The notes beneath the pieces were generated by a model that saw only the letters and a program-made list of their open reading frames with translations, made no database searches and had not been told where the DNA came from. A stretch of 64,000 nucleotides of DNA from Echinarachnius parma (lineage: Eukaryota; Echinodermata; Echinoidea; Clypeasteroida; Echinarachniidae), in NCBI GenBank assembly GCA_037951105.1, contig JBAMJV010007717.1, forward strand, positions 54,603 through 118,602, written 5' to 3'. The position numbers and the translations under genes are program-made. Shown here in pieces: positions 5,854 to 57,000 of the stretch; position 1 is the stretch's first letter, and each line of letters starts with the position of its first letter.

Positions 5854-6045
5854 CTTTACACGTTGGGGCCGGGCCCGACCACTTGGCACTTGTCCCGTCT
5901 TTATTGAGTCTACAAACCACCTCAAGGTTTTTCTTTGACGGTGCAAAGCCAGCGTCACAAGTATAACTAGCTCTGCTGCCTACAGTCAGGGCAGCTACAG
6001 ATACACCACCATTCTCGGGACGTGCTGGCTTGTCGCATGTAACCT
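5854..6045 (-). CDS. CCP/sushi domain exon (most downstream one seen)
   Basis: A 192-nt, phase 1-1 exon. Reads [40 protein letters not shown] and WSGPAPTCK, then a GTGAGAG donor. The intact donor means at least one more exon should follow at lower coordinates; I could not find it in 1-5853, so it may lie outside the window. Confidence 0.86.
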
Positions 6046-9000: not shown

Positions 9001-12000
9001 TACGCAAGTTCTCTATCATATTCCCCCAATACTCACCGACACATGTAGGTGGTTCGTCAGACCATGTGGCGCTTTTGCCATCTTCACCGAGTCTACAAAC
9101 CACCTCAAGGTTATCCGTTGATGAAGCGAAGCCAGAATTACAAGTATATCTAGCTGTGCCACCTACAGTCAAGGCATTCCCGGAGACACCACCATGCTTG
9201 GGACCTACCGATTTGTCACAAGTAACCTCTGGAAGGAAAGGAAAACCACAATTAAAATATAAGGTGAGTACGTTTAATTTCTGGTACATGTCAACCAGTT
9301 GTTCGTGACAAGGGCCACGTCAGTCCCGTAGCAAAAATGTTCATGTTCCCCTATGCTTCAAAGAAACTATATTACATTGATTTGGTGGTATGAAGCATAT
9401 ACTTCTTTTTCGATCCAGTCGATAATGAAAACAAATTTGAAGTATACATCATTTACTGGATGTATATTTAAATATACAAGGTGGCCCCCAAAAACGGAAC
9501 GGGCATTTCCCAAAATATAGTAACATAATTATTATGATAAATCAGATAGAGTGTCCTTTCCAATGAATAACGATACCAAGAACAATAATTTTGAACGAGT
9601 AGTTTTTGTTGTATAGGACGTCTTAAGTGAGACCATGTCAGGTTTCCGTTTTTGTCATTTTGTATCAAGTCACTGCTTGATGAACCGCCCTTCCTGCCCG
9701 TCATAGCACTAAACAATTGTGCCCATTCTGAATGCACCCTAACAATGGCGCACGTATTCGCAGTAAGTGCGATTTATCAAGCGCTGGCTTGGTAAAAATT
9801 GACAAAAAAGGGAACCTGACATGGTGTCACTCACAGTGCCCTAAAACAAAAACTACACGACCAAATTGACTGTTCGTGGTATCATCTTTCATTGGAAAAG
9901 ACACCATATCCGATGGACATAATCATGTTGTGACTATATTTTGGGAAGTGCCGCGTTCCGTCTTTTGGGGTTAGTGCTATACCCTCAAAATCTCAGTTCG
10001 AAGACAATACTAGTAATATTTCAATTACCTGTGGTAGGGCCACTCCCGTATAGCTCCATTCTCATGCTGATGTGTCCATTCCATGTAACTGGTAGCAAAC
10101 GCACGTACCGGCACTCAACCTGGGCTGGGAAGTTATTCCGAACCACCGTGTCAAAATCAGTGTTGCCCGAGAAGACCTGTGCAAAAAACCCAAAACGAAG
10201 TTAAATTAAATAAATTAAAGACAACAACAATAGTATAATGATAATGCAGGTAGCGCAGAAATGATATGCCTTTAAAATGAAGGGATCTAAATGCCACTGT
10301 TATAATCCACAACACTTACTTGGAACTGTAGCGGAAACATTGTTGCATTCGAATACAAAAAAGAAGCATGGAACATATGTCGGTTTTCCTAATTTTTGTT
10401 TCGTTAGAAATATACTTACGATTGGAGTGTTCGCATTTAAAAGTCTCTTTGCAAGGAGAAGTAAAATAACGAATCAAAGGTGAATATTATTACGTCAAGA
10501 AAAAAGGTAAAATATAAATGCAGCTATAGCTGATACAAGGAGAGTCATTATATCTACAATATGAATAAAAAATAAAAAAACACTTCAGTCATAAAAGGCA
10601 TAACAATGTCTTTATTTCACAAACGTTCTAATGTTTTTTCATCAAACAGTCTCATCATGTACCTTACAGCCAATAAAGTAGGAAACACAAATTCTTCAAC
10701 CAAATGACTCAACTTATTAGAAGTCATAATTGACAAACTTTAAGTTACTACATCAACAACAAAATTCGTCCCTGAAAAATCCTTATTTTGAACCTCACAG
10801 GTGGGAAGGCATTAGCATTAATAACATGGAACTTACTACATCAGTTCCAGATGTATCTTTCACTGTTTCAAATGTCACGCCATCCAAGCTGTAGGTGACC
10901 TTGTAGCTTTTCACCCACTGGGCAACACCCGGACGTCCTTGTGTTGCCAAGGCAACGACTCGATAGGGATAGTTCAGATCAACCTATAATGTGACAGTCA
11001 AGTACATTGAGTTATTCCATGTCTACATTAATTTTTAACATTACTTCTTTCCCATTGGTAACGATGTAATAGTTTTGAAAGACTGTACATACTAAGTTCC
11101 CAAACTCTCTTTCGTTGATGGTTTTACACAAGCATGCACTTGAAATGTTGTAATTTGTAAGTCGTGTTCATGGTATTACGTTATTTAATCTTAAATCACA
11201 TATTCATATTACGTTCTGTATCATCTCCATATATTTTAAGGTAAGGGAAAGAACAAGTAAATCGGTATGCTATCAAAGAAAATGATGGAATTATAGATGA
11301 AGATATGAACATAACATGTTTCCAATCGTGAACAATAAAATTTGCTAATTCATGAAGGATTTAATGAGCTGCGAAAGACCTAGAATATAATGCAACATTC
11401 CATTTTTATTGACAATCCGTACATGAAGATAAATATGAAGTGCTTCAACACAAGATATCAAACATGGCAACCTACTAGTTTGTACACGAATGAGGTACAA
11501 AACAAGTTACTCTAACCTGAATCCACTGGTTTCTGTCATTTTTCTTCGCAATCCAAGCTCCCTTCGAATTGGCGGTAAGAACTGCATTTAACCGGCCATA
11601 GCTGGGTTTCCAATCTCCGTTGTACTCGCTCGATGCGGTCAAACGCGAATCAGGAATGGATTTAGACTCAAGTCCGAGGGGAATATCTTTTGTAGATGTA
11701 ATAGAACATATTGTAAAAAGAATTATGCTATAATCCGTTCCTTATTAGATCGAAAAATAATGTAATAACTCCTACGAATATTATCAGGAGTATTAAAGGG
11801 ATAGTTGAGTTCTGGTAAAGAGAATTTTTGGTCAAATTGAATTTTAGTAACCAAAATCTGCACCATTATATTACAAACTAATAGTTATAACTCGAAAGGA
11901 ATTCAAAATTACAAATGACTTAGTAAAGAGCCTGTTATCATTCAAAAGAGCCGTTAAAATCAAGAGGGCGCTCTCTAAACACTCATCGGTTTCAACCATT

Positions 12001-15000
12001 TTAAATCAAATATTGTGCATGTGATGTTTTGTTGAAATAGTGATTAGATAGAGAGATAATCAACAACTATTTAAAAACCTCTTTTGTAAAATTTTGAAAA
12101 TGGGAAGCATTACAAATTTTTTTTTTAACGGCTGGTTCAAAATTATCGAATAAGTGTGGGGCCCCACATTTACTACAAATGGTTATGTTTATGGATATTT
12201 CAGCCATTTCTGAACCGATTTTGATCAAATAAAGTTTATTTTGTCATTAATATTGTATGCTCTTTGGAATTTGACACTTAGTTTTTCATTATCTCGCAAA
12301 CAAATTATTTTGTGTAGCGCCCTCTTTACCAAAACTCAACAATCCCTTTAAAGGGATCTAGTAACTTTGTTGACATGTGCAAAACGTGATGAAGGGTTGA
12401 TGCAATGTATATTGTTGTTATCTCATATGTCCATAGGGTAAAACTCCGGGGGAGTTTTTCTTATCTGAATACTTCGATCGTACATAATTTGTATTGAAAG
12501 GGAAATTTGAAAAACCGAAACCGGTCCCATGATTTTATTGTTAATACGAATACAACAAGGTATGAGGGAACCGCTAGAATTTAAATTTTATTTTGAGGAT
12601 TTGGACAATGTTACTAAGTCCCTTTAATGCATGAATGGAAATACAGTCAAACCTGTGTAAGAAAAGTCGCCACTGTAGACAGGTTCATTCCATTGTTTTC
12701 TCTGCAGAGGATAATGTTTAGTGGCTATTATAGGCAGGTTGACTGCTATAGACAGGTGGCTACAAAAACAGGTTTGACAGTATATACAAAGGAGTATCCA
12801 ACAATATAATTCAAATTGCCAGTGAACTACCTTGATTTGTTGATGTTCTCACAAATTATCGATAAACAAATAAATGGAAAATATTAAATACATAACATAT
12901 AGTACAAAGTTTTAAAACATGTTTGAACATTGTTTTGGCATCCCTTTACATTTTTTTTATTTTTATCAATGACAATATTTGAATTACCGCTGATAGGGCC
13001 ACTCCCGTATAGCTCCATTCTCATGCTGATGTGTCCATTCCATGTAACTGGTAGCAAACGCACGTACCGGCACACTACCTGGGCTGGGAAGTTATTCCTA
13101 ACCACCGTGTCAAAATCAGTGTTGCCCGAGAAGACCTGTGCAAAAAATAACAAAACGAAGGTAAATATTATTACTTGAAGACAAAATGATAAGGCAGCTA
13201 GCTAAAAAATGATAAGGCAGCAAGCTAAGAAATGGGTAATCAACACAAGCCCGTAGCCAGGGGGATGTGTCCGATGCGTAGGCACCCCCAAAATTCAGAA
13301 AGGTCAACTTTCTATCGGTCTTGAACGCCTCCCCCCATGCTTACACAACTTAAAGGTTGGCTGACAAGAAAACTACCTACAACTTGTGTTTTACTGTTTC
13401 TAAGGTAGATTGTCATGAAGATTACTAATAAAAACATATTTTCCGCGTCGGAAAAACCCAGTAAAATAAAAAAAATTAACTTTTAAATTCACTTTAGTAA
13501 TCCCGGTAACAAAATTGAGTCCGGGCGAAGAAAAATTACGTCATCTTTGTGACGTCACATGCAGGCAATCGCAGTATAGCTCGGTCATAGACGTACACGC
13601 TGAGCGCAATACCCACGTTGACAGAGAGATATTATTTAGATTTTTGTTCAATATTTGCAAACATTTGTTAAAGTTTATATCATGGACGATCTACACTCAG
13701 ATGTGTTGCTGCAAGCTGCTATAATTCATTTCTTAGGAATTTTCAGTTAAGCCTCAATTTACAAGCAAAAACGAGTTTGTTTTACAAGCAAATCATAGGC
13801 TCTGCATGTAAACCATGCACATTCCTCCGTGTTGCGGTCTGCTTGTGATGTCATCATCCGGGTTGCACGTGCGCACATTCCCGCTCCGCTGTAAATTACT
13901 TTTTTAGCAGTATGGAACGCCGATGCGAAAACAAGCAAAAAAGTTGCATGAAATTTACCTTTCTTGCCCAACTTAAGGGTTTCTTTTATTTGAAAAAAAG
14001 AGTGTGGTATATCAATATAGGCACATATTTAAAGCTATAAACCTGAATCAAAGCCAGGATTTCACCATACCTTTAACCGGTGCATTTGGCCTCGGCCTAG
14101 AAAACTTTTGACAAGGGACACCCGACCCCCAGGCTACACGAATTCACCAGTGGTCTCGGTATCGGCCACGTTCGGTCTCGGTCCCATTTTTGTAAATTAC
14201 GCAACCCACCCTCCCCCCTTGACAAATCGTAACTACGGGCCTGTATTATATTTCTGATATGACTTTGAATTAAAGGGATCCAATGACATTGTCGAATCAA
14301 CTTCTTTCTTGGAACTTTAGTGTAACCTTGTTGTATTCGAATTACTAATAAAAGCATGAAACAGATTTCGGTTTTCTTAATTTCTATTTATTTAGAAATA
14401 TATTTAAGATTGGCGTTATGGAAGATCTACAACTGTGTATAAAGTAAGAGAAATCTGTTATTCAACAACAATTTTCTACCTGTACCACCCATTTCATAAA
14501 AAAATATTTATAACATAAAATAAGTCCCTCAACCGACTTCGCACAGGGATGGGTCGATGCAAAGTCAACATGAAAAAGTGGGGATACACAGATGATGACA
14601 ACATTAACTGCGACTGTGGCACATCACAAACCATGCAACACCTCCTTCAGTGTCCTAACCTTGAGGAACAGTGTAGTCAAGAAGATCTGGTGGTTGCGAA
14701 TGAGACAGCCCTGCGATGTGCAAAGTCATGGCCAAATATTTAATATTTTAGACTAGTAGTGTAGCGTAGTGTAGAGTAGTGTAATTCAACCTAACTTAAA
14801 ATATCAACTTAATGACTTAAAATCAAATGCTGTTCAACTTAACTTATAAAATCAACTATATAACTTTAAATCTAAAGCTATTCAACTAAATATCACCAAG
14901 GGTTTCCTAACTTATACAATTAAACGGGCTTCTATAAAATATCTCGGTTGTCTTGGATTCTTCTCGGGGAGAGCGAGGATATACCGAGTGAGCAGGGAAT

Positions 15001-18000
15001 CTGAAACAAGAACAAGACAAGGAGCTTAGCCGCTGTGGTGATTTCTGGAGGAATTCACAAACACGTCTGGTCTCCTTGCAAGCAATATGCACTCTCCTAA
15101 TTATATTAAACTAATATTTTATAGGACTTACTAAAAGTAACATTTCAAACAATCTTTATAAAACATGTTATTATAAGTAGAATTCTCTACCACTTGTTCC
15201 TAAATCTAAAAGTTAGAAACTGAAGGACACATACCACATTACTCATAGCAATACAAATACCACTATCAACTAATACTGGCCATGCACAGAGTGGAGAAAA
15301 GAAAGGGGAGATGAGAAACTCAGGGGAGAAAGAGAGAAAGATAACTCAACCATGAGTTTGGATAGAGAGAGACATGAAGAGAGAGAAAGATAAAGATAAG
15401 AGCTTAGACAGTCTAGACATAGTTGAGAAAGGGTCAGAAAGGAAGAGAGAAAAAGAGAGATAGGTACATAGTGTAAGGAGTAGCCAAAGTCTTCAAACAC
15501 ACTTCTACTTAAAGGCTCTTCTAATGTTAAAGGGCAACAACTTCCTAAACACAAAGAAATAGTTTGTATACATCATATTTACACATAGGCTATTAGTCAA
15601 ACTCAATTGAGCCAGCCTACTTAATCTTTCAATCAATGAGGCTATAATAATCAGGCACAACTAAAGTGCTGGTATGTACATCGCACTCTTATCAAGTTGC
15701 ATATAATTCAATGACTGTGAATATCCGAAATACAACTTTAAGTATATTATATTTCACATAGGACATTTAGAAATGCCCAATAATAGCTGCAATTATCAAT
15801 TCAAACCATTTTCTCTATAAACGTCATATTAAATGGCATCATGTAAATGTTATGCCATATCAATCTTTGTTATCATAATTATTCTCATCAAAACAATAAT
15901 ATGTTAGTGATACATGCAAGTTATGGTTTTGCGAGTATTGTTCAGCGTCGGTTTATTATTAACCATTGGAGCTCATGAAATATCACTGCCGCAGGTTTAG
16001 AGCTCTTTAAACCTGTTTGACCTGGGTGATACTTCCGCAATTTGGATTTATCATATAACATAATCACAATATAATTTCAATTATTCTTCTAATAATTTCC
16101 ATTAAAAGTTGCACCACGCGCAGCGTAACCATACTGAACAAAGAGCGCATAACCATGTGTACAATAGAATGGGCTAGATAATATATACAATTTAATTTAC
16201 AAGGAGATGGAAAAGGTATTCCTCCTACTAGATCAACTCAGTTAATACTTGTGTATGAATCAACTAAAATGTAAGCTTAATTGATCATATAAATATTCTA
16301 AAGGAAAGTGAAATATGTGCAAGAAAACTATGACTAACATAGACTACTAAATATAAAGATGGATGTTGCTTACCTGAAACAAGAACAAGACAAGGAGAAT
16401 TTCTTAGTCGCTGTGGTGATTTCTGGAGGAATTCACAAACACGTCTGGTCTCCTTGCAAGCAAACTGCACTCTCAACTCCTACTTGTAAGAACCAAGCTA
16501 ACAGGAGGTGAGATGCCTTGTTATCTTATTTCAAGTCAACATCAATGAATCACCATTTAGCACACACAGAGGCTTTGTTTCCCATTAACCTTAAAGCACA
16601 GTGCACATTAAATAAATCACTACCTGGGTACCAGCAACTTTTATCAATGCCAGATAGGTACTATGTATGGTCTACATGCACAATGACATTCTTTTGTACC
16701 AAGGAACTGCGTACTCTATAAAACTTACAATAGAGACATAAAATATATACTTAATCTTACATCACCAAAACTACAGGGTCCGACACTCTCCCCTCCGAAA
16801 ATCATGTTGTCTCGACATGAACATAATATCATCCTAGGGGGATGATCAATTCTGGACTAAACAAGCCTGGAGCAGGGCAAGGGTTTGTTCTTGAAGGGCC
16901 ATCTGCTCTTCAAGGAGCTTAATTTTGGTCTTCCCCAAAGTGCCGTACCACAACCGGTCTGGAGGAACGCCACGTCTTGTAGACCTTCTAGGAGGAACCG
17001 GTGATGGTGGAGCTTCGTCAGCATCAGTGGAGGATGAAGGCGAAATATCATCATCTTCTTCATCAACATGAAAAGGGGGGTCCTGCTGGGGGAGATCGCC
17101 AGTTTCAGCAGCCAAATCTGGTTCGTTTAAGTCCAATAGGGGTACTAAATTCTCTGCTGGCAAAGGAACGAACTCTTCAGCATGTGGGTCCAGTGAAGCT
17201 CTAGGACTGACTCGGGGCCGTCTAGGCGCAGGAACACGATGTTGGGTCACGACTTCATCAATGGGACCTTGGAATGTCAATTCTGAGCCGCTGCTGGAAC
17301 ATGAATCGAACCGGTGCTGGACATGAGGGGCATCATCATTTAGATTAGAGGGCATGGATGGAAGGGGCTTGGGGCCTTGGTACGAGCTGTTGGATCGTCG
17401 TCGCTGTCGCTTGTTACGAGAACGACGTCGACGCCGATCTCGGGCATACCTACTGCCCTGTACGTTTGTGAAATTAGGGCCCGTTATATTTATTCCTCTC
17501 TGGCCCTTCTCATTAACAACTAAATCAAATTCGACAAGCTCTCCATCTTCGCTGCCGTTTATTGGGATTATTTTTAATAATATCAGTCCAATGAACAAAA
17601 ACATCATGACAATCAGGATCAGGCAATGTAATGAAACCATAGCCTTTCTTGACATGAAACCATTTGACCGTTCCCGTGCAACGAAGTGATGGAGGCAGAT
17701 CTTTAGATTTGATCCCCATCATATGACCCTGTCATACTAGTATTCCCACATGCCTAGCAGCATTATGCGAACCAGCATCAAATTTTTCAACGCATACGGT
17801 GCGCAGTCCTCGTTCAAGTTTACCATATTATTTAAAATGTTTAAGCCAATCAAAATGTTAAACCAATCAAAATATGAAACTTAAAACATGTATGTTATAG
17901 GTAGGCCTAGTTATATAAGGACACCTACATGTAATCAAACCAAACAATAAGTCATACGTTTACTTAACACTCATTAATGGCGATATCAATTCGAATCATT

Positions 18001-21000
18001 AATTATAATATTGCTTACGCCAAAAGTATAAGCTACGCCAAAAGTATAACCTACGCCAAAAGTATAACCTTCACCTAAAAAAGGATGTATGCTGTATAAT
18101 GTACTATACTTAAATAAACAAAAAAATAACCAACAAATAAATCTCCTTTTAAGGCACTAAAACAATTAACCAAAAATTATTGAACAACTAATTTTAATAT
18201 CCGGGCAGTGCCTCCATTTGTGTCCCTAATTATGGAACTTACCACATCAGCTCCAGATTTATCTTTCACTGTTTCAAAGGTCACGCCATCCGAGCTGTAG
18301 GTGACCTTGTAGCTTTTAACCCACTGGGCAACACCCGGACGTCCTTGTGTTGCTAAGGCAACGACCCGATTAGGAAAGTTGAGATCAACCTGGATATTTC
18401 AAACGGATGTCATGATTGATTTTATGTCCATATTAACATAGCATATTTCTATCAAAATGGTTATATTATGATGATTTCGAACGCCCGAAAATACTATGCT
18501 ACGCTTTACAATTCATGCAGTTGGATTTGTCTTATTTGTAACATGTCGTTTATATATATATATATATTGGTATCAAAATGAAGTGCGTCTTTAATGCTGT
18601 CGCCGCACATGCGAAAGTACTTAAGGGCCAGATATCAAACATGGCAACCTACATATTTGTTCACGAATGAGTTATACACTGTTGCTCATAAAGTTGGAAT
18701 ATTTTTTTGTTTAGATCCAACTTCATTCTTTGTCTTGTTTTATGCGCCTAATGATTCATTTTAGACTAAAAAATAATGATTATATAATGTTTCCAAACTA
18801 CCAATGTACAATAAATGGTTGCATGAATTTGCATTAATTAATTATTCCTTTTGTTTTGAGCTTTGAAAGGCAGGACCTTCGATGATTGGCCCCTTTCCCT
18901 CTCCAAAACGCATGTCCAACACGTCATTGTTATGGGTCGTTTCTCAGTGTTGGCTGTAAAATGTTCAATCAAAATTGGCACATAGGCTCTCTAGGGCATA
19001 CTTCGTCCAAAGACATTGGCTACACGCCAACGATGCGTGTGCTCCACCAGGAAGAGATGTCAACAAGCAATGTCCACTAGTTCGTTGGAACATCGCAGGT
19101 TACGGTCTATAAAATACTCAGACGTCATCGAGATGAGGGTAAATTAAAGCCACTGACTCTCTAGGACGTCCACGATTGACCACCGGGATAGATTATCGGA
19201 AATTGCTTAACCTGTGCCGTATAAACCGGAAATGCCCAAAAGGAGCCTTCGCCGTCTATGAAGAAAACACTATAGAATCAACGCCTTCCGCCAAACTGCG
19301 CATCAGAGATCGCTCTAACATGGTCACCGAGCAAGACAAACTACCAGATGTCCACCCCATAACATGCAACTGGACGTCCCTGGACTAGGGAGTACAGAAG
19401 ATTCCCGCGTAGACACTGGTGATATGTCATCTTAATGGGTACGAGCCATTCCACCGTATGGCCGTCAGAACCTCAAGTCGTTTGGTGAATGCAGACATCT
19501 TGGAGCTTCTCACCACGTAATCGACGAACCCTTTCTCTTCATCTATTCGGTCAAGGATGTTATGGCTCGTACCCATTAAGATGAGCTATCACAAGTGTCC
19601 AAGCGGCAATCTTATGGGCTCCCTAGTCCAGGGACGTCCAGTTAATCTTGGTTACATGTTATGGGGTGGACATCTGGTAGTTTGTCTTGATCGGTGACCA
19701 TGTTAGAGCGATCTTTGATGTACAGTTTGGCGTAAGGCGTCGATTCCATATAGTGTTTTCATCATAGACGGCGAAGGCTACTTTTTGGCATTTCCGGTTT
19801 CTACGGCACAAGTTAAGCAATTTGCAATCAACTATCCCGGTGGTCAATCGTGGACGTCCTAGAGATTCCCGTCGCTTTAATTGACCCTCCTCTTGATGAC
19901 GTCTGATGATTTTACAGACCGTAACCTGCGATGTTCCAACGAAATAGTGGACATTGCTGGTTGACACCCCTTCCTGGTGGAGCACAAGCATCGTATGGCG
20001 TGTAGGCAACGGCGTTGGACGGAGTATGGCCTAGAAAGCCTCCGTGCCAATTTTGTTTGAAAATTTTACAGCCAACTCTGAGAAATTTCACATAATGTTG
20101 GACATACGCTTTGGAGAGGGAAAGGGGCCAATCATCAAAGGTCCAGCCTTTCAAAGCTCAAAACAAAAGGCTAAATTAATTTATGCAAATTTATGCAACT
20201 ATTTATTAAACATTGGTAGTTTTGAAGCATTATTATAATCATTATTTTTAGTCTAAAATTATTAATTAGGCGCAAAAAAAGAGGAAAAAGAAAGAAATTC
20301 GATCAAAACAAAAAAAAATATTCCAACTTTCTGAGCAACAGTGTAATACATGAGGTACAATTTATAGCAAAGACAAGTTATCGAAATGTCTTTGAATAAG
20401 AACGTACTCTTACCTGAATCCACTGGTTTCTGTCATTTCTCTTTGCAATCCAAGCTCCCTTCGAATTGGCGGTAAGAACTGCATTCAACCGGCCATAGCT
20501 GGGTTTCCAATCTCCGTTGTACTCGCTCGATGCGGTCAAACGCGAATCAGGAATGGATTTAGACTCAAGTCCGAGGGGAATATCTTTTGTAGATGAAAAC
20601 AAAGTAACATAATTATTGTAAACGAATCATGCTATAATCAGTTCCTAACCGGATCGAAAATAATGTAATAACTCCCACAAATATAAACACGATTTATGCC
20701 CGAGTTCTCCTCATGGACAATCTGCTATATTTGTCACGTTCGTGTAAGGCAGACATGGACATGAAATATACCAAGGAGTATCCAACAATAACATTCATAC
20801 TGCCAGTCCACTAGTTATATTTGTTGTTGACGTTATGATGCTCTCACAAATCATCGATGAACAAATGTAATTATGGACATTATTAAATACATGACATATG
20901 GTAAATAGTTTTCAAAACATGTTTGAACATTCATTTGGCATCCCTTCACATTATTTTGTTATAAATGACAACGTTTTAAATACCGTTGATAGGGCCACTC

Positions 21001-24000
21001 CCGTATAGCTCCATTCTCATGCTGATGTGTCCATTCCATGTAACTGGTAGCAAACGCACGTACCGGCACACTACCTGGGCTGGGAAGTTATTCCTAACCA
21101 CCGTGTCAAAATCAGAATTGCCCGAGAAGACCTGTGCAAAAAATAACAAAACGAAGGTAATTAAAGGTTTTTCCGCTCAAATTCGCACTTGTGTCAATGA
21201 AATGGATAATAGGAGCAAATGAATTCGCGCGATTTGCGAACACCGCCGTAACAAATCAGCATTCGAATTCGTTTAAAGTCGTTAGAAATCACTTTCGGAG
21301 CAAATGAATTTGCACGATTGTCTTTTCTTTTTTTTTACACAAAGAGAATAATTTGTTATCAATGTCATTCAAATTGACATTTTCTTACGCTGACACCTCT
21401 TCGGTCATTCGAGTTTGGCTGTACATTCGCGAATTCGACTGTATATAAATGAACTTGCGTGTCCATACACCAAATCTAATGTGGACAAACGAATTCGAAT
21501 GGATTTATTCTAAATTTGAAAGACCGAAGACAGCGTGTGCACGGCAAGGTTAGAATTGTAATGACCTTATATGAATGTGATTGAAAAAGACATCTAATTA
21601 AGCGGGAAAACCTATATAATTACTTAAAAAAAAAAAAGGAAGACGATAAGGCAGCTAGCCAAGAAATTATGTAAATTCAAATTAAAGGGAATCAATGACA
21701 TTGTCAAAATCCACAGCACTTACTTTTAACGTTAGTCCTTGTTGTATTCGAATTACAGATAAAAGCATGAAAAAGATTTTGGATATCCTAATTTTTATAT
21801 AGAAATATACATATTATCGACGTTTTTCGCATTTGAAAGTCTCTTTGTAATATTTACACTTCTGTATAAAAGTAAGAGAAATCGTTTTTTACCAACAATT
21901 GTCTACCTGTACCCATCATTTTATTACAATTATTTATACCCCAAAACACGGTTCCCAATCAAACACATGGTAATCACACCACTTAAAACACAAATTTAGA
22001 AGTATTTTCTTAAAGCTTGGGACGCATTATTTCATTAATTAAATTATAAACCTAATTATGAAACTTACAACATCAGCTCCAGATTTATCTTTCACTGTTT
22101 CAAAGGTCACGCCATCCAAGCTGTAGGTGACCTTGTAGCTTTTTACCCACTGGCCATGACCTGGACGTCCTTGTGTTGCTATGGCAACGACTCGATTGGG
22201 AAAGAAGAGATCAACCTGGAAATTTAACAGTCAGATTTCATGATTTATTTCATGTCCATTATAATAATTCATATTTCTATCAAACAACTAACATTATAAT
22301 GATCTTCAACGACTGAAAATACTATGTCATCATAATGATTGGTGTTGGCGCTTTACAATTCATGCAATTGGATTTGCCTTATTTGTAACATGTCGTTCAT
22401 ATTATGTAAAGATATATTTGTTTTAAAATAAATTGCGTCTTTAATGCTGTCGCAGCACATGCGAAAGCACTAAAGCGTCGGATATTGTTTATGGGATCCT
22501 ACGAATTTGTACACGAATGAGGGGATCATGAGGTACAATTCATAGTATACACAAGTTATCGATATGTCTTTGAATAAGAACGTACTCTTACCTGAATCCA
22601 CTGGTTTCTGTCATTTGTCTTTGCAATCCAAGCTCCCTTCGAATTGGCGGTAAGAACTGCATTCAACCGGCCATAGCTAGGTTTCCAATTTCCGTTGTAC
22701 TCGCTCGATGCAGTCAAACTCCAATCAGGAATGGATTTAGACTCAAGTCCGAGGGGAATATCTTTTGTAGATGGAATAAAATATATTGTGAAAATAATCA
22801 TGCTATAATCCTTTCCTTATCAGATCGGAAAAAATGTAATAACTCCTACAAATATTATCAGGAGTATTAAACTGCAATACTACTCGCTATTTACACGATT
22901 TATGCCCGAGTTCTCGTCAGAGACGATCTGCTATATTTGCAATGTTCGTTTAAGGCATGCATGGACGTGAAATATACCAAGGAGTATCCAACAATAGCAT
23001 TCATACTGCCCGTCCATTACATAATATATTTGTTGTTGACGTTATGCTGTGACTCACAAATCATCGATGAACAAATATAATAATGGACATTATTAAATAC
23101 ATGACATATGGTAAATAGTTTTCAAAACATGTTTGAACATTCTTTTGGCATCCCTTTACATTATTTTGTTATAAATGACAACGTTTTAAATACCGTTGAT
23201 AGGGCCACTCCCGTATAGCTCCATTCTCATGCTGATGTGTCCATTCCATGTAACTGGTAGCAAACGCACGTACCGGCACACTACCTGGGCTGGGAAGTTA
23301 TTCCTAACCACTGTGTCAAAATCAGTATTGCCAGAGAAAACCTGTGCAAATAATTACAAAACGAAGGTAATTAAAGGTTTTCCGCTCAAATTCGCAGTTG
23401 TGTCAATCAAACTAATAATAGGAGCAAATTAATTCGCGTGATTTGCGAACACCGCCGTAATAAATCAGCATTCGAATTCGTTTATATTCGTTAGAAATCA
23501 CTCTCGGAGCAAATGGATTTGCACGATTGTATTTTTTTTTTTACACAAGGAGAATACATTTCATCGATTCCATTCAAATTGGCATTTTCTTACGCTTACA
23601 CCTCTTCGGTCATTCGAGTTTGGCTGTACATTCGCGAATTCGACTGTATATAAATGAACTTGCGTGTCTATATACCAAATCCAATGTGGACAAACGAATT
23701 CGAATGGATTTATTCTAAATGTGAAAGACCGAAGACAGCGTGTGCACGGCAAGGCTAGAATTCTAATGACCTTATATGAATTTGATTGAAAAAACATCTA
23801 ATTAAGCGGGAAAACCTATATAATTACACAAAAAAAAGAAAAAAGAAAGACGATAAGGCAGCTAGCCAAGAAATGATGTAAATTCAAATTAAAGGGAATC
23901 AATGACATTGTCAAAATCTACAGCACTTACTTTTAACGTTAGTCCTTGTTGTATTCGAATTACAGATAACAGCAGGAACAAGATTTTGGATATCCTAATG

Positions 24001-45000: not shown

Positions 45001-48000
45001 ATTTGCGAACACCGCCGTAATAAATCAGCATTCAAATTCGTTTATATTCGTTAGAAATCACTCTCGGAGCAAATGGATTTGCACGATTGTATTTTTTTTT
45101 TACACAAGGAGAATACATTTCATCGATTCCATTCAAATTGGCATTTTCTTTATACGCTTACACCTCTTCGGTCATTCGAGTTTGGCTGTACATTCGCGAA
45201 TTCGACTGTATATAAATGAACTTGCGTGTCTATACACCAAATCCAATGTGGACAAACGAATTCGAATGGATTTATTCTAAATGTGAAAGACCGAAGACAG
45301 CGTGTGCACGGCAAGGCTAGAATTATAATGACCTAATATGAATTTGATTGAAAAAACATCTAATTAAGCGGAAAACCTATATAATTACTAAAAAAAAAAA
45401 AAAAGAAAGACGATAAGGCAGCTAGCCAAGAAATGATGTAAATTCAAATTAAAGGGAATCAATGACATTGTCAAAATCTACAGCACTTACTTTTAACGTT
45501 AGTCCTTGTTGTATTCGAATTACAGATAAAAGCATGAACAAGATTTTGGATATCCTAATTTTTATATAGAAATATACATATTATCGACGTTTTTCGCATT
45601 TGAAAGTCTCTTTGTAATATTTACACTTCTGTATAAAAGTAAGAGGAATCGTTTTTTACCAACAATTGTCTACCTGTAGGCCTACCCATCATTTTATTAC
45701 AATTATTTATACCCCAAAACACGGTTCCCAATCAAACACATGGTAATCACACCACTTAAAACACAAATTTAGAAGCATTTTCTTAAAGCTTGGGACGCAT
45801 TATTTCATTAATTAAATTATAAACCTAATATGAAACTTACAACATCAGCTCCAGATTTATCTTTCACTGTTTCAAAGGTCACGCCATCCAAGCTGTAGGT
45901 GACCTTGTAGCTTTTTACCCACTGGCCATGACCTGGACGTCCTTGTGTTGCTATGGCAACGACTCGATTGGGAAAGAAGAGATCAACCTGGAAATTTAAC
46001 AGTCAGATTTCATGATTTATTTCATGTCCATTATAATAATTCATATTTCTATCAAACAACTAACATTATAAAGATCTTGAACGACTGAAAATACTATGTC
46101 ATCATAATGATTGGTGTTGGCGCTTTACAATTCATGCAATTGGATTTGCCTTATTTGTAACATGTCGTTCATATTATGTAAAGATATATTTGTTTTAAAA
46201 TAAATTGCGTCTTTAATGCTGTCGCAGCACATGCGAAAGCACTAAAGCGTCGGATATTGTTCATGGGATCCTACGAATTTGTACACGAATGAGGGGATCA
46301 TGAGGTACAATTCATAGTATACACAAGTTATCGATATGTCTTTGAATAAGAACGTACTCTTACCTGAATCCACTGGTTGTTGTCATTTGTCTTTGCAATC
46401 CAAGCTCCCTTCGAATTGGCGGTAAGAACTGCATTCAACCGGCCATAGCTGGGTTTCCAATTTCCGTTGTACTCGCTCGATGCAGTCAAACTCCAATCAG
46501 GAATGGATTTAGACTCAAGTCCGAGGGGAATATCTTTTGTAGATAGAATAAAATATATTGTGAAAATAATCATGCTATAATCCTTTCCTTATCAGATCGG
46601 AAAAAATGTAATAACTCCTACAAATATTATCAGGAGTATTAAACTGCAATACTACTCGCTATTTACACGATTTATGCCCGAGTTCTCGTCAGAGACGATC
46701 TGCTATATTTGCAATGTTCGTTTAAGGCATGCATGGACGTGAAATATACCAAGGAGTATCCAACAATAGCATTCATACTGCCCGTCCATTACATAATATA
46801 TTTGTTGTTAACGTTATGCTGTGACTCACAAATCATCGATGAACAAATATAATTATGGACATTATTAAATACATGACATATGGTAAATAGTTTTCAAAAC
46901 ATGTTTGAACATTCTTTTGGCATCCCTTCACATTATTTTGTTATAAATGACAACGTTTTAAATACCGTTGATAGGGCCACTCCCGTATAGCTCCATTCTC
47001 ATGCTGATGTGTCCATTCCATGTAACTGGTAGCAAACGCACGTACCGGCACACTACCTGGGCTGGGAAGTTATTCCTAACCACTGTGTCAAAATCAGTAT
47101 TGCCAGAGAAGACCTGTGCAAATAATTACAAAACGAAGGTAATTAAAGGTTTTCCGCTCAAATTCGCAGTTGTGTCAATCAAACTAATAATAGCAGCAAA
47201 TTAATTCGCGTGATTTGCGAACACCGCCGTAATAAATCAGCATTCGAATTCGTTTATATTCGTTAGAAATCACTCTCGGAGCAAATGGATTTGCACGATT
47301 GTATTTTTTTTTTACACAAGGAGAATACATTTCATCGATTCCATTCAAATTGGCATTTTCTTTATACGCTTACACCTCTTCGGTCATTCGAGTTTGGCTG
47401 TACATTCGCGAATTCGACTGTATATAAATGAACTTGCGTGTCTATACACCAAATCCAATGTGGACAAACGAATTCGAATGGATTTATTCTAAATGTGAAA
47501 GACCGAAGACAGCGTGTGCACGGCAAGGCTAGAATTCTAATGACCTTATATGAATTTGATTGAAAAAACATCTAATTAAGCGGAAAAACCTATATAATTA
47601 CTAAAAAAAGAAAAAAAGAAAGACGATAAGGCAGCTAGCCAAGAAATTATGTAAATTCAAATTAAAGGGAATCAATGACATTGTCAAAATCTACAGCACT
47701 TACTTTTAACGTTAGTCCTTGTTGTATTCGAATTACAGATAAAAGCATGAACAAGATTTTGGATATCCTAATTTTTATATAGAAATATACATATTATCGA
47801 CGTTTTTCGCATTTGAAAGTCTCTTTGTAAAATTTACACTTCTGTATAAAAGTAAGAGAAATCGTTTTTTACCAACAATTGTCTACATGTAGGCCTACCC
47901 ATCATTTTATTACAATTATTTATACCCCAAAACACGGTTCCCAATCAAACACATGGTAATCACACCACTTAAATCACAAATTTAGAAGTATTTTCTTAAA

Positions 48001-51000
48001 GCTTGGGACGCATTATTTCATTAATTAAATTATAAACCTAATATGAAACTTACAACATCAGCTCCAGATTTATCTTTCACTGTTTCAAAGGTCACGCCAT
48101 CCAAGCTGTAGGTGACCTTGTAGCTTTTTACCCACTGGCCATGACCTGGACGTCCTTGTGTTGCTATGGCAACGACTCGATTGGGAAAGAAGAGATCAAC
48201 CTGGAAATTTAACAGTCAGATTTCATGATTTATTTCATGTCCATTATAATAATTCATATTTCTATCAAACAACTAACATTATAATGATCTTGAACGACTG
48301 AAAATACTATGTCATCATAATGATTGGTGTTGGCGCTTTACAATTCATGCAATTGGATTTGCCTTATTTGTAACATGTCGTTCATATTATGTAAAGATAT
48401 ATTTGTTTTAAAATAAATTGCGTCTTTAATGCTGTCGCAGCACATGCGAAAGCACTAAAGCGTCGGATATTGTTCATGGGATCCTAAGAATTTGTACACG
48501 AATGAGGGGATCATGAGGTACAATTCATAGTATACACAAGTTATCGATATGTCTTTGAATAAGAACGTACTCTTACCTGAATCCACTGGTTTCTGTCATT
48601 TGTCTTTGCAATCCAAGCTCCCTTCGAATTGGCGGTAAGAACTGCATTCAACCGGCCATAGCTGGGTTTCCAATTTCCGTTGTACTCGCTCGATGCAGTC
48701 AAACTCCAATCAGGAATGGATTTAGACTCAAGTCCGAGGGGAATATCTTTTGTAGATGGAATAAAATATATTGTGAAAAGAATCATGCTATAATCCTTTC
48801 CTTATCAGATCGGAAAAAATGTAATAACTCCTACAAATATTATCAGGAGTATTAAACTGCAATACTACTCGCTATTTACACGATTTATGCCCGAGTTCTC
48901 GTCAGAGACGATCTGCTATATTTGCAATGTTCGTTTAAGGCATGTATGGACGTGAAATATACCAAGGAGTATCCAACAATAGCATTCATACTGCCCGTCC
49001 ATTACATAATATATTTGTTGCTGACGTTCTGCTGTGACTCACAAATCATCGATGAACAAATATAATTATGGACATTATTAAATACATGACATATGGTAAA
49101 TAGTTTTCAAAACATGTTTGAACATTCTTTTGGCATCCCTTCACATTATTCTGTTATAAATGACAACGTTTTAAATACCGTTGATAGGGCCACTCCCGTA
49201 TAGCTCCATTCTCATGCTGATGTGTCCATTCCATGTAACTGGTAGCAAACGCACGTACCGGCACACTACCTGGGCTGGGAAGTTATTCCTAACCACTGTG
49301 TCAAAATCAGTATTGCCAGAGAAGACCTGTGCAAATAATTACAAAACGAAGGTAATTAAAGGTTTTCCGCTCAAATTCGCAGTTGTGTCAATCAAACTAA
49401 TAATAGGAGCAAATTAGTTCGCGTGATTTGCGAACACCGCCGTAATAAATCAGTATTCGAATTCGTTTATATTCGTTAGAAATCACTCTCGGAGCAAATG
49501 GATTTGCACGATTGTATTTTTTTTTTACACAAGGAGAATACATTTAATCGATTCCATTCAAATTGGCATTTTCTTACGCTTACACCTCTTCGGTCATTCG
49601 AGTTTGGCTGTACATTCGCGAATTCGACTGTATATAAATGAACTTGCGTGTCTATACACCAAATCCAATGTGGACAAACGAATTCGAATGGATTTATTCT
49701 AAATGTGAAAGACCGAAGACAGCGTGTGCACGGCAAGGCTAGAATTCTAATGACCTTATATGAATTTGATTGAAAAAACATCTAATTAAGCGGAAAAACC
49801 TATATAATTACTAAAAAAAGAAAAAAAGAAAGACGATAAGGCAGCTAGCCAAGAAATTATGTAAATTCAAATTAAAGGGAATCAATGACATTGTCAAAAT
49901 CTACAGCACTTACTTTTAACGTTAGTCCTTGTTGTATTCGAATTACAGATAAAAGCATGAACAAGATTTTGGATATCCTAATTTTTATATAGAAATATAC
50001 ATATTATCGACGTTTTTCGCATTTGAAAGTCTCTTTGTAATATTTACACTTCTGTATAAAAGTAAGAGGAATCGTTTTTTACCAACAATTGTCTACCTGT
50101 AGGCCTACCCATCATTTTATTACAATTATTTATACCCCAAAACACGGTTCCCAATCAAACACATGGTAATCACACCACTTAAATCACAAAATTTAGAAGT
50201 ATTTTCTTAAAGCTTGGGACGCATTATTTCATTAATTAAATTATAAACCTAATATGAAACTTACAACATCAGCTCCAGATTTATCTTTCACTGTTTCAAA
50301 GGTCACGCCATCCAAGCTGTAGGTGACCTTGTAGCTTTTTACCCACTGGCCATGACCTGGACGTCCTTGTGTTGCTATGGCAACGACTCGATTGGGAAAG
50401 AAGAGATCAACCTGGAAATTTAACAGTCAGATTTAATGATTTATTTCATGTCCATTATAATAATTCATATTTCTATCAAACAACTAACATTATAATGATC
50501 TTGAACGACTGAAAATACTATGTTGGCGCTTTACAATTCATGCAATTGGATTTGCCTTATTTGTAACATGTCGTTCATATTATGTAAAGATATATTTGTT
50601 TTAAAATAAATTGCGTCTTTAATGCTGTCGCAGCACATGCGAAAGCACTAAAGCGTCGGATATTGTTTATGGGATCCTACGAATTTGTACACGAATGAGG
50701 GGATCATGAGGTACAATTCATAGAATACACAAGTTATCGATATGTCTTTGAATAAGAACGTACTCTTACCTGAATCCACTGGTTTTTGTCATTTGTCTTT
50801 GCAATCCAAGCTCCCTTCGAATTGGCGGTAAGAACTGCATTCAACCGGCCATAGCTGGGTTTCCAATTTCCGTTGTACTCGCTCGATGCAGTCAAACTCC
50901 AATCAGGAATGGATTTAGACTCAAGTCCGAGGGGAATATCTTTTGTAGATAGAATAAAATATATTGTGAAAATAATCATGCTATAATCCTTTCCTTATCA

Positions 51001-54000
51001 GATCGGAAAAAATGTAATAACTCCTACAAATATTATCAGGAGTATTAAACTGCAATACTACTCGCTATTTACACGATTTATGCCCGAGTTCTCGTCAGAG
51101 ACGATCTGCTATATTTGCAATGTTCGTTTAAGGCATGCATGGACGTGAAATATACCAAGGAGTATCCAACAATAGCATTCATACTGCCCGTCCATTACAT
51201 AATATATTTGTTGTTGACGTTCTGCTGTGACTCACAAATCATCGATGAACAAATATAATTATGGACATTATTAAATACATGACATATGGTAAATAGTTTT
51301 CAAAACATGTTTGAACATTCTTTTGGCATCCCTTCACATTATTCTGTTATAAATGACAACGTTTTAAATACCGTTGATAGGGCCACTCCCGTATAGCTCC
51401 ATTCTCATGCTGATGTGTCCATTCCATGTAACTGGTAGCAAACGCACGTACCGGCACACTACCTGGGCTGGGAAGTTATTCCTAACCACTGTGTCAAAAT
51501 CAGTATTGCCAGAGAAGACCTGTGCAAATAATTACAAAACGAAGGTAATTAAAGGTTTTCCGCTCAAATTCGCAGTTGTGTCAATCAAACTAATAATAGG
51601 AGCAAATTAATTCGCGTGATTTGCGAACACCGCCGTAATAAATCAGCATTCGAATTCGTTTATATTCGTTAGAAATCACTCTCGGAGCAAATGGATTTGC
51701 ACGATTGTATATTTTTTTTACACAAGGAGAATACATTTCATCGATTCCATTCAAATTGGCATTTTCTTACGCTTACACCTCTTCGGTCATTCGAGTTTGG
51801 CTGTACATTCGCGAATTCGACTGTATATAAATGAACTTGCGTGTCTATACACCAAATCCAATGTGGACAAACGAATTCGAATGGATTCATTCTAAATGTG
51901 AAAGACCGAAGACAGCGTGTGCACGGCAAGGCTAGAATTCTAATGACCTTATATGAATTTGATTGAAAAAACATCTAATTTAGCGGAAAAACCTATATAA
52001 TTACTAAAAAAAAAGAAAAAAGAAAGACGATAAGGCAGCTAGCCAAGAAATGATGTAAATTCAAATTAAAGGGAATCAATGACATTGTCAAAATCTACAG
52101 CACTTACTTTTAACGTTAGTCCTTGTTGTATTCGAATTACAGATAAAAGCATGAACAAGATTTTGGATATCCTAATTTTTATATAGAAATATACATATTA
52201 TCGACGTTTTTCGCATTTGAAAGTCTCTTTGTAATATTTACACTTCTGTATAAAAGTAAGAGAAATCGTTTTTTACCAACAATTGTCTACCTGTAGGCCT
52301 ACCCATCATTTTATTACAATTATTTATACCCCAAAACACGGTTCCCAATCAAACACATGGTAATCACACCACTTAAAACACAAATTTAGAAGTATTTTCT
52401 TAAAGCTTGGGACGCATTATTTCATTAATTAAATTATAAACCTAATATGAAACTTACAACATCAGCTCCAGATTTATCTTTCACTGTTTCAAAGGTCACG
52501 CCATCCAAGCTGTAGGTGACCTTGTAGCTTTTTACCCACTGGCCATGACCTGGACGTCCTTGTGTTGCTATGGCAACGACTCGATTGGGAAAGAAGAGAT
52601 CAACCTGGAAATTTAACAGTCAGATTTCATGATTTATTTCATGTCCATTATAATAATTCATATTTCTATCAAACAACTAACATTATAATGATCTTGAACG
52701 ACTGAAAATACTATGTCATCATAATGATTGGTGTTGGCGCTTTACAATTCATGCAATTGGATTTGCCTTATTTGTAACATGTCGTTCATATTATGTAAAG
52801 ATATATTTGTTTTAAAATGAATTGCGTCTTTAATGCTGTCGCAGCACATGCGAAAGCACTAAAGCGTCGGATATTGTTCATGGGATCCTACGAATTTGTA
52901 CACGAATGAGGGGATCATGAGGTACAATTCATAGTATACACAAGTTATCGATATGTCTTTGAATAAGAACGTACTCTTACCTGAATCCACTGGTTTCTGT
53001 CATTTGTCTTTGCAATCCAAGCTCCCTTCGAATTGGCGGTAAGAACTGCATTCAACCGGCCATAGCTGGGTTTCCAATTTCCGTTGTACTCGCTCGATGC
53101 AGTCAAACTCCAATCAGGAATGGATTTAGACTCAAGTCCGAGGGGAATATCTTTTGTAGATGGAATAAAATATATTGTGAAAATAATCATGCTATAATCC
53201 TTTCCTTATCAGATCGGAAAAATGTAATAACTCCTACAAATATTATCAGGAGTATTAAACTGCAATACTACTCGCTATTTACACGATTTATGCCCGAGTT
53301 CTCGTCAGAGACGATCTGCTATATTTGCAATGTTCGTTTAAGGCATGCATGGACGTGAAATATAGCAAGGAGTATCCAACAATAGCATTCATACTGCCCG
53401 TCCATTACATAATATATTTGTTGTTGACGTTCTGCTGTGACTCACAAATCATCGATGAACAAATATAATTATGGACATTATTAAATACATGACATATGGT
53501 AAATAGTTTTCAAAACATGTTTGAACATTCTTTTGGCATCCCTTCACATTATTCTGTTATAAATGACAACGTTTTAAATACCGTTGATAGGGCCACTCCC
53601 GTATAGCTCCATTCTCATGCTGATGTGTCCATTCCATGTAACTGGTAGCAAACGCACGTACCGGCACACTACCTGGGCTGGGAAGTTATTCCTAACCACT
53701 GTGTCAAAATCAGTATTGCCAGAGAAGACCTGTGCAAATAATTACAAAACGAAGGTAATTAAAGGTTTTCCGCTCAAATTCGCAGTTGTGTCAATCAAAC
53801 TAATAATAGTAGCAAATTAGTTCGCGTGATTTGCGAACACCGCCGTAATAAATCAGCATTCGAATTCGTTTATATTCGTTAGAAATCACTCTCGGAGCAA
53901 ATGGATTTGCACGATTGTATTTTTTTTTTACACAAGGAGAATACATTTAATCGATTCCATTCAAATTGGCATTTTCTTACGCTTACACCTCTTCGGTCAT

Positions 54001-57000
54001 TCGAGTTTGGCTGTACATTCGCGAATTCGACTGTATATAAATGAACGTGCGTGTCTATACACCAAATCCAATGTGGACAAACGAATTCGAATGGATTTAT
54101 TCTAAATGTGAAAGACCGAAGACAGCGTGTGCACGGCAAGGCTAGAATTCTAATGACCTTATATGAATTTGATTGAAAAATCATCTAATTAAGCGGGAAA
54201 ACCTATATAATTACTTTAAAAAAAAAGTAAGACAATAAGGCAGCTAGCCAAGAAATTATGTAAATTCAAATTAAAGGGAATCAATGACATTGTCAAAATC
54301 TACAGCACTTACTTTTAACGTTAGTCCTTGTTGTATTCGAATTACAGATAAAAGCATGAAAAAGATTTTGGATATCCTAATTTTTAATATAGAAATATAC
54401 ATATTATCGACGTTTTTCGCATTTGAAAGTCTCTTTGTAATATTTACACTTCTGTATAAAAGTAAGAGAAATCGTTTTTTACCAACAATTGTCTACCTGT
54501 ACCCATCATTTTATTACAAGTATTTATACCCCAAAACACGGTTCCCAATCAAACACATGGTAATGACACCACTTAAAACACAAATTTAGAAGTATTTTCT
54601 TAAAGCTTGGGACGCATTATTTTATTAATTAAATTATAAACCTAATATGAAACTTACAACATCAGCTCCAGATTTATCTGTCACTGTTTCAAAGGTCACA
54701 CCATCTAAGCTGTAGGTGACCTTGTAGCTTTTAACCCACTGGGCAACACCCGGACGTCCTTGTGTTGCTATGGCAACGACTCGATTGGGAAAGAAGAGAT
54801 CAACCTGGAAATTTAACAGTCAGATTTCATGATTTATTCATGTCCACGTTAATATATCATATTTCTATCAAACTACTTACATTATAATGATTTTGAACGA
54901 CTGAAAATACTATGTCATCATAATGATCGGTGTTAGCGCTTTACAATTCATGCAATTGGATTTTACTTATTTGTAACATGTCGTTCATATTATGTAAAGA
55001 TATATTTGTTTTAAAATAAAGTGCCTCTTTAATGCTGTCGCATCACATGCGAAAATATTAATGCGCCGGATATTGTTCATAGCATCCTACAAATGTGTAC
55101 ACTAATGAGGTGATCACGAGGTACAATTTACAGTATACACAAGTTATCGATATGTCTTTGAATAAGAACGTACTCTTACCTGAATCCACTGGTTTCTGTC
55201 ATTTCTCTTTGCAATCCAAGCTCCCTTTAAATTGGCGGTAAGAGCGGCATTCAACCGGCCATATCTGGCTTTCCAATTTCCGTTGTACTCGCTCGATGCG
55301 GTCAAACTCCAATCAGGAATGGATTTAGACTCGAGTCCGAGGGGGGAATCTTTGTTAGATATCACACATGCGATTTTGTAAAGAATGTTAGCACTACATT
55401 TTATCATCGATCCTTAATCGATATACCAAGAAAGATAACACATTTATAATATGATTATAATCATGCTATAATCTCTGCATTATAAGTCCAGACAATCAGT
55501 CAAATATTTGGGTTGCTATACAGTCCGAGTAAAATAAAAACCGAAACCGTACTTTAACAGCTTATAAATCCATGATTCTAAACAAATATATGTTAATATT
55601 GGTATCACGTTAAAACTTGGGAAATGCCTTCAAAATGATTTATCATACACTTTGATTGATTTACCCTTTCACCGAACGCGACCTTATTATCCAAAGGCAG
55701 GTAAAACATAATAGGCCTAATTTGCATAGATACAGTGTGTCTCTTAGGATGAATTTTCTTCTTTTGATCTAAGGAATATAAAAACACCATTTTCATAGAA
55801 TATCCCATTTTCATGAATAAACTTGCATCAATTATGTAAATTAGGCCTAATTTGCATAGATACAGAGTGTCTCTTTGGATGATTGTTTTCTTTTTAATCA
55901 AGGAATATGTGTGCCATGTAAAACAATCGTACCCGAAAATGCAGTCATGGACCTCTTAACAAGCATACTATTACCCGTGTCCAAGTTTGAAGTTGTCTTG
56001 TGTCATCATGAATGGATGCGAACATCAGACAACATGATGCAGCCATTCACAAAACAAGAAAACTGCAAAATTGGACACGGGTTGTTTTTGCATGACTTAG
56101 GATAATTAGGTCGCATTCGGTGAAGCGTGAAGTGATCAGAGTGTATGATAAATCATTTCCCCAAACGTTATCATGATACCAATATCAAAGGGGTAGTACA
56201 GTTTTGGTAAGGCTGAGCTTTAGTAACCAAAACCTGCACAATAACACTACAAACTAAGTAATATTTATAACTCCACTCAAAAGGTGTAGAAAATTACAAG
56301 CGACCGATGAAAAAGCCTGTTATCATTAAAAAAGAGCCATTAAACACAAGAGGGCGCTCTATAAAAAAAACATTGGTTTCAACCATTTTTCATACAAAAG
56401 TATGCATGTAATGTTTTGTTGAAATAATTATTAGATAGAGAGATCATCAACAACTAATTAAAATCCTCTTTTATTTTATTATTTTTAAAGCTTAGGCATT
56501 TCACCAATTTTGTTTAAAAATCATCGAATAAATCTGGGCCCCAGATTTATTCCGATCGGATATATTTATTGATATTTCAGCCAGCCGTTTCTGAACCCAT
56601 TTTAATCAAATAAAGTGTATTCTGCCATTGAAATTGTATGTTCTTTCACATTTTACACTCAGTTTTCCATTACCTTACAAACAAATTATTTAGTGCAGCG
56701 CCCTCTATACCAAAACTGAACTACCCCTTTAACATATTTATGTTTAGAATTGCGTATTTATTAGCTATAGTAAAGTCCGGTTTTTTTTTTTTCACTGAGC
56801 TATGACCGAGTTCAGGATATTTAAAAGAATAGCTTTGATTAAAGAAGGCAAATGGATCTTCAAAAGAGTTTCAACCAATAACAAATAAGGACCTAGCACA
56901 CTCACACTGATTTTGTCCTTAAAAGGTTATAAAAGACATTGCATTGTTGAAGCACACATCATGTAACATCTTTCTCGATGCCTTTACATACAAAATTACA

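Follow-up and report, generated by a model that had tools for sequence, protein, structure and literature searches.

Architecture of the locus

The minus strand of a 64,000-nucleotide stretch of Echinarachnius parma DNA (contig JBAMJV010007717.1, positions 54,603 to 118,602; hereafter the window) carries a tandem array of F5/8 type C (F5/8C, discoidin) domains, which appears to belong to a single gene for a very large modular protein. When the minus strand was scanned for exons of exactly 170, 147 and 148 nucleotides (nt), 17 F5/8C exons of each size were recovered from 55349 to 10029, all with open frames and arranged as three-exon cassettes; neighbouring domains join in phase 1, and the two junctions inside a domain are phase 0. 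On the minus strand the same scan returned 9, 9 and 14 open candidates of these respective sizes that are not F5/8C exons. An AG acceptor and a GT donor are each present at 51/51 array exons, and the joined exons yield 17 domains of ~155 amino acids (aa) each, 2634 aa in total, with 0 stops in this frame and 136 and 206 stops in the alternative two frames. Exon scan, splice sites and open frame thus agree with the original prediction, which had called 51 intact minus-strand exons (170+147+148 nt) with phase 1 at domain borders and about 2635 residues of repeated modules. The unit 2 domain, which was taken for the Pfam search from a set of 17 units mutually 87.7-100% identical, matches PF00754 over profile positions 2-127 of 127 (E=9.9e-32, 110.2 bits, cut-off 28.2), and its best match in the PDB is factor V (E=4e-43). 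A chance origin of the array is excluded by the 98.7-100% coding-sequence identity shared among 14 of the 17 units.

The array and the further exons on either side of it, which encode CCP (sushi) and HYR-like modules, are as follows, in the direction of transcription:

63810..63998, minus strand: CCP module at the contig end, found by tblastn; its donor is weak or unclear by eye, and it was left out of the joined frame
63548..63742, minus strand: CCP module exon, phase 1-1 (tblastn, Pfam and joined frame)
62029..62271, minus strand: HYR-like module exon, phase 1-1 (joined frame; Pfam HYR E=0.0018, under the curated cut-off)
59444..59635, minus strand: CCP module exon directly upstream of the array, phase 1-1 (tblastn, Pfam and joined frame)
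10029..55349, minus strand: F5/8C array, 17 three-exon cassettes, 51 exons, 2634 aa (exon scan, joined frame and Pfam PF00754)
9037..9228, minus strand: phase 1-1 CCP exon that directly follows the array; it shares 61.5% identity with the CCP at 59444..59635
6347..6589, minus strand: exon of the second HYR-like module (84% identity with the first), phase 1-1; Pfam listed no match for it
5854..6045, minus strand: phase 1-1 exon of a CCP module that shares 91% identity with the upstream CCP

Array and flanking modules, the contig-edge CCP with its unclear donor being omitted, join as 57 exons to 3053 aa with 0 stops, and all modules have phase 1 at either end. This uninterrupted join, the uniform phase 1-1 and the AG/GT pairs at 51/51 array exons argue for a single gene; furthermore, the introns between successive units (400-994 nt after units 1-15) are short for separate promoters. 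The locus therefore reads, as had been proposed, as a single gene encoding a multivalent series of repeated binding modules, and one transcript would join the array and the flanking modules. Given that the array is flanked on either side by in-phase CCP and HYR-like exons, the gene is probably larger than 10029..55349; these coordinates, originally given for the gene, hold for the array, the flanking exons having been overlooked. The downstream HYR-like/CCP pair may form the C-terminal part of this gene or open an adjacent one.

The CCP assignment of the flanking modules is well supported by scores of 58.5 and 63.1 bits against Pfam PF00084 (cut-off 20.7), with two stretches matched per flank; the contig-edge CCP and the first CCP of a related block on another contig (C2048, described below) were matched by tblastn only. 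The first HYR-like copy in the window gives a weak full-length match to Pfam PF02494 (19 bits, cut-off 21.7, positions 2-81 of 81) and a C2048 copy scores 15 bits against the same cut-off, while the module has no match in the PDB at E<=1. Within the array, no CCP or HYR-like match was better than E=0.8, the two weak ones having E=0.82 and 8.2. Base 64000 of the window is the last base of its contig (C7705), of which the window forms the right end. In a genome search with window 63000-64000 for an extension at the 5' end, the best 40 of 3855 candidates comprised, besides the query, dispersed repeats and paralogous CCPs on C2048. Contig positions 4603-54602 gave no further F5/8C match except one weak one (E=8.9), in a listing that omitted the already mapped rows for contig 64631-110000.

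Repeats and mobile elements are found around the array. Inverted and tandem repeats with periods of 42, 190 and 223 bp (TTACGTCGTGTAGTAATT) are densely packed between the upstream HYR-like and CCP exons (window 59664-61302) and are probably palindromic transposon clusters, and a 16-bp minisatellite (CGTTATTCCGAAGGTT) occurs in both orientations in the gap that separates the array from the upstream CCP exon (window 57788-58531). Between the downstream CCP and HYR-like exons (window 7247-8207) are ~3.6 tandem copies of a 274-bp unit holding tRNA-Ala-like sequences, two of which are called by ARAGORN (7376-7451 and 7940-8015), as in a short interspersed element-like or tRNA-derived array. Downstream of the last CCP, window 4035-4433 encodes a retroelement reverse-transcriptase fragment (RVT_1, E=4.4e-11), and the adjoining open frames look related to it by eye.

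A uniform core between diverged ends

The 17 units fall into a homogenised core and more diverged copies at both ends:

53582..55349, minus strand: unit 1, diverged N-terminal copy, with coding identity of 94.2-95.7% to units 2-16 and 91.4% to unit 17
20984..53150, minus strand: homogenised core, units 2-15; the unit is ~2.2 kb, or ~2.76-2.78 kb with a transposon-like insert in intron 3
32147..35916, minus strand: intron 3 of unit 9 through intron 3 of unit 10, with a common transposon-like insertion (introns of 994 nt, 99.9% identical)
10029..20583, minus strand: the two C-terminal copies (units 16 and 17), diverged and with introns that are long or align poorly

Units 2-15 are those that share 98.7-100% of their coding DNA, and their proteins vary at 3 of the 154 residues compared; for units 16 and 17 coding identity falls to 91-96%, and the introns of units 15-17 are atypical. 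Introns of the core are likewise conserved: intron 1 is 98.7-100% identical across units 2-15, intron 2 is 98-100% identical in units 2-14 (unit 15 at 95-96%), and intron 3 is 96.5-99.9% identical in units 2-14 (unit 15 at 89-90%), this last range excluding the comparison of unit 11 with units 9 and 10, the alignment of which is upset by their differing inserts. The near-identity of exons and introns alike in units 2-15 indicates that the core was recently amplified in tandem or converted, with the frame kept. Both growth and uniformity would follow from tandem duplication, unequal exchange or conversion of the ~2.2-kb cassette, the frame-neutral three-exon make-up of which would let the repeat number change with the frame unbroken. 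The insert common to units 9 and 10 further implies that duplication continued after the insertion.

Unit 11 carries a different transposon-like insertion in its intron 3, at another site. By eye, it is an independent insertion of a dispersed transposon-like element, for which window ~762-1144 matches 56183-56733 and which was seen by eye also at ~7270-7770 of stretch L030. The introns of unit 16 hold a helix-turn-helix, transposase-like fragment in intron 1 (window 19659-20030, best Pfam E=0.00015, under the cut-off) and a 290-aa open frame on the minus strand of intron 2 (window 16846-17718) with no Pfam match listed at E<=5.

Such uniformity raises the question of whether the copy number is partly an artefact of assembly, so that the real count of near-identical 2.2-kb units would differ from 17. 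The coding identity of units 2-15, the identical introns 1 and 2 of units 10 and 11 and the end of the contig inside the flanking modules are what an artefact might produce. However, the insert shared by units 9 and 10 and the different one in unit 11 make the units distinguishable in the assembly, private substitutions and indels separate them further, no other contig among the matches listed reaches this identity, and the same tandem design recurs in other arrays. We consequently regard an artefactual count as quite unlikely.

In units 2-14 divergence is 0.22% in coding sequence and 0.70, 0.97 and 1.33% in introns 1, 2 and 3 (the last from the 10 units without a large insert), such that exons vary 3-6x less than introns. 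Across the more diverged copies, nonsynonymous divergence (dN) is lower than synonymous divergence (dS) in 10/10 diverged unit pairs computed (0.052 versus 0.146 for units 2 and 17), which does speak for constraint; the case for selection rests on these ten pairs and on the intact frame. The same ratios, together with 0 stops over 3053 aa, the uniform phase and the 51/51 canonical splice-site pairs of the array, render it very improbable that the region comprises several separate or dead genes, as might be supposed from the large introns of unit 16 with their transposase-like fragment.

Sister arrays elsewhere in the genome

A search of the assembly with one domain gave 151 matches from the best 150 of 1733 candidates, most as single exons, on at least 25 contigs including that of the window. 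The same three-exon cassette stands in tandem on three of the other contigs, C7370, C10752 and C2048 (stretches read in part). Among the matches listed and the stretches read, the array of 17 is the largest; it is not singular. C7370 has at least 11 exon-3 matches and a two-unit higher-order repeat of 4416 bp (98.7% identity), C10752 has a 2928-bp repeat (98.9% identity), and on both of them the middle exon is apparently 144 nt. Of eight HYR-like positions on C2048, seven are followed by groups of exon-3 matches, which number at least 5, 4, 11, 3, 8, 4 and 7 by our own grouping. One block of this contig, read in sequence, has the order CCP-CCP-CCP-HYR-like-(F5/8C)3-SUEL-SUEL, and the SUEL lectin domain of a sister copy on C2048 matches with E=9.3e-42. 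No SUEL domain was matched at E<=1 on positions 4603-118602 of the window's contig, so the C-terminus of the window gene seems unlike that of the C2048 block. C2048 223001-263000 (L029-L032) is part of a tandem cluster of such paralogous blocks (CCP, HYR-like, F5/8C and twin SUEL lectin exons), and two SUEL exons read there end at a common GTAAGTAA, which is a good donor and an in-frame stop alike.

Mean amino acid identity within arrays is 97.0% in the window (87.7-100%, 136 pairs), 98.7% on C7370, 99.3% on C10752 and 91.5% on C2048, and between arrays it is 61-84% (based on 3 units from C7370, 2 from C10752 and 3 of the 4 read on C2048). When four array sequences are aligned, 19 of 26 columns in the predicted ligand loops vary, versus 48 of 125 elsewhere (Fisher p=0.0012), with loop limits that we set from the factor V alignment and its spike positions. 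A rather tentative suggestion is that each array has one specificity, the F5/8C cassette having been amplified at many loci and being uniform within arrays, with divergence between them mainly in the loops.

As to the host, COX1 in the same assembly stays open when AAA is read as Asn, AGA as Ser and ATA as Ile, a reading judged by the conserved residues at which these codons stand, and the mitochondrial order is 16S-COX1-tRNA-Arg-ND4L-COX2-tRNA-Lys, with ND4L and COX2 recognised by eye. This codon reading is the echinoderm mitochondrial code and the gene order fits the echinoid/holothuroid layout, which identifies the host as an echinoderm.

Predicted role and relation to known proteins

In light of the above, we propose, with a probability of about one half, that the locus is one echinoderm gene for a very large secreted modular protein suited to avid, multivalent attachment, with a Nectin-like adhesive or cohesive matrix role. 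We infer a single transcript and a secreted product of the layout ...CCP-CCP-HYR-like-CCP-(F5/8C)17-CCP-HYR-like-CCP..., on which 17 near-identical jelly-roll modules in one chain would attach to a repetitive extracellular target, be it glycan or matrix, and which would have grown by the exchange mechanism outlined above. A chain of near-identical modules argues for avidity to one repeated ligand. Avidity or a structural secretion, as suggested at the outset, is the most plausible interpretation, and 14 units that differ at three positions suit avidity more readily than diversified recognition. A diversified recognition repertoire within the array was rejected on the same count, with only 3/154 aa positions varying in units 2-15.

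Domains of the factor V/VIII type have a pair of N- and C-terminal cysteines. This pair is not present in any of the 17 domains, each of which has one cysteine (17/17; position 127 in the four units printed) lying in the conserved RYVRL strand as judged from the PDB factor V alignment. The array has a pI of 9.3 and no N-glycosylation sequons; LDT and RGD are both lacking from the joined 3053 aa, in which LDV (residue 186) and NGR (residue 11) each fall within CCP modules. Uniform modules with one cysteine apiece, accompanied by HYR-like modules (a weak match), might also suit an extracellular matrix or egg-coat component of the hyaline-layer or cuticle type, where the array would be a structural spacer and cross-linker and not a surface adhesive. 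This we consider unlikely: the HYR match stays under the Pfam cut-off, and the cysteine, in its conserved core strand, is probably buried and offers no obvious cross-link. Free cysteines as cross-links were set aside for the same reason.

Among described proteins, the closest one found is Nectin, a glue protein of the sea urchin Paracentrotus lividus; the accessible part of its description (PMC10057474) gives 984 aa, six tandem discoidin domains 47-55% alike, nothing but discoidin domains after the signal peptide, and an LDT integrin motif in domain II. The adhesive proposed here would share with Nectin the tandem discoidin (FA58C) domains of an echinoderm secreted protein, a low cysteine content and a similar domain size (here 155 aa), and would differ from it in having 17 domains in place of six and in the in-phase flanking CCP/HYR-like exons of what would be a common transcript. 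It looks like an oversized Nectin in its working and yet is not classed as Nectin, since it departs from Nectin in three features that could be compared, namely domain content, the LDT motif and the degree of likeness. With this precedent (PMC10057474, as far as its accessible text goes) and matches on at least 24 contigs besides the window's, the original statement that F5/8C domains usually occur singly or in small numbers was too strong; the claim of an undescribed system went too far likewise, given Nectin and the same tandem cassette on three other contigs.

Other comparisons are more distant. The footprint proteins of sea stars, which are echinoderm adhesive secretions, make use of hyalin-repeat, galactose-binding and FA58C domains, in other module combinations and with no long F5/8C array described in the accessible text (PMC9382459). 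Oyster bindin, by the portion of its description available (PMC5712786), likewise has tandem jelly-roll lectin domains within one gene; these are, however, one to five F-type lectin repeats diversified by positive selection near the binding pocket, unlike the F5/8C array with its 14 near-identical units. The C domains of factor V/VIII and neuropilin belong to the same family by sequence (PDB, best E=4e-43), but the best PDB hits have two matched stretches per chain, and their terminal cysteines and the spike-1 WW of factor V C2 are absent here. No description of a long F5/8C array in an echinoderm was found among the titles and abstract starts listed in the literature searches, and the terms 'type C', discoidin, nectin, hyalin and sushi were not found in the accessible part of the Holothuria glaberrima genome paper (PMC13228809).

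Several observations weigh against a Nectin-like adhesive. The contig stops inside the upstream modules with no gene start in view, and no signal peptide or gene end was found. Nectin domains are 47-55% alike, whereas those of the array average 97.0%, and the LDT motif of Nectin (PMC10057474, in the part available) has no equivalent in the 3053 aa. The alignment offers no counterpart to the tryptophan-rich spike 1 (WW) of factor V C2, so lipid or membrane binding of that type is not favoured. The variable codons of units 2-14 comprise two amino-acid changes and one silent change; the core itself accordingly shows no dN<dS, purifying selection inside it as read from low exon divergence is weakened, and that low divergence could also reflect exon-biased conversion or chance.

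Finally, CCP modules are common in complement-type immune proteins, and an immune role may for this reason fit nearly as well. The protein would then be a humoral or coelomocyte pattern-recognition molecule, its CCP and F5/8C modules forming a multivalent opsonin or agglutinin for microbial glycans, as would be consistent with the CCP modules on both flanks, the SUEL lectin domains added in the related C2048 block (E=9.3e-42) and the divergence of the predicted ligand loops between arrays. Near-identical modules within the array are nonetheless the opposite of a diversified repertoire, and we hold this alternative to be somewhat doubtful.

If a single chain is made from the array, its run of near-identical discoidin domains would be unusually long and would offer a natural model for avidity gained through repetition; such a protein would be a candidate for an underwater adhesive or a matrix component. 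Should each array have one specificity, concerted evolution would repeat the same ligand loops 3 to 17 times for avidity, and unequal exchange could alter the repeat number, and hence the strength of binding, at no cost to the frame. The genome also holds several separate arrays within each of which the cassette is near-identical in exons and introns alike, so that array-level specificity and repeat-number variation become directly testable in echinoderm populations.

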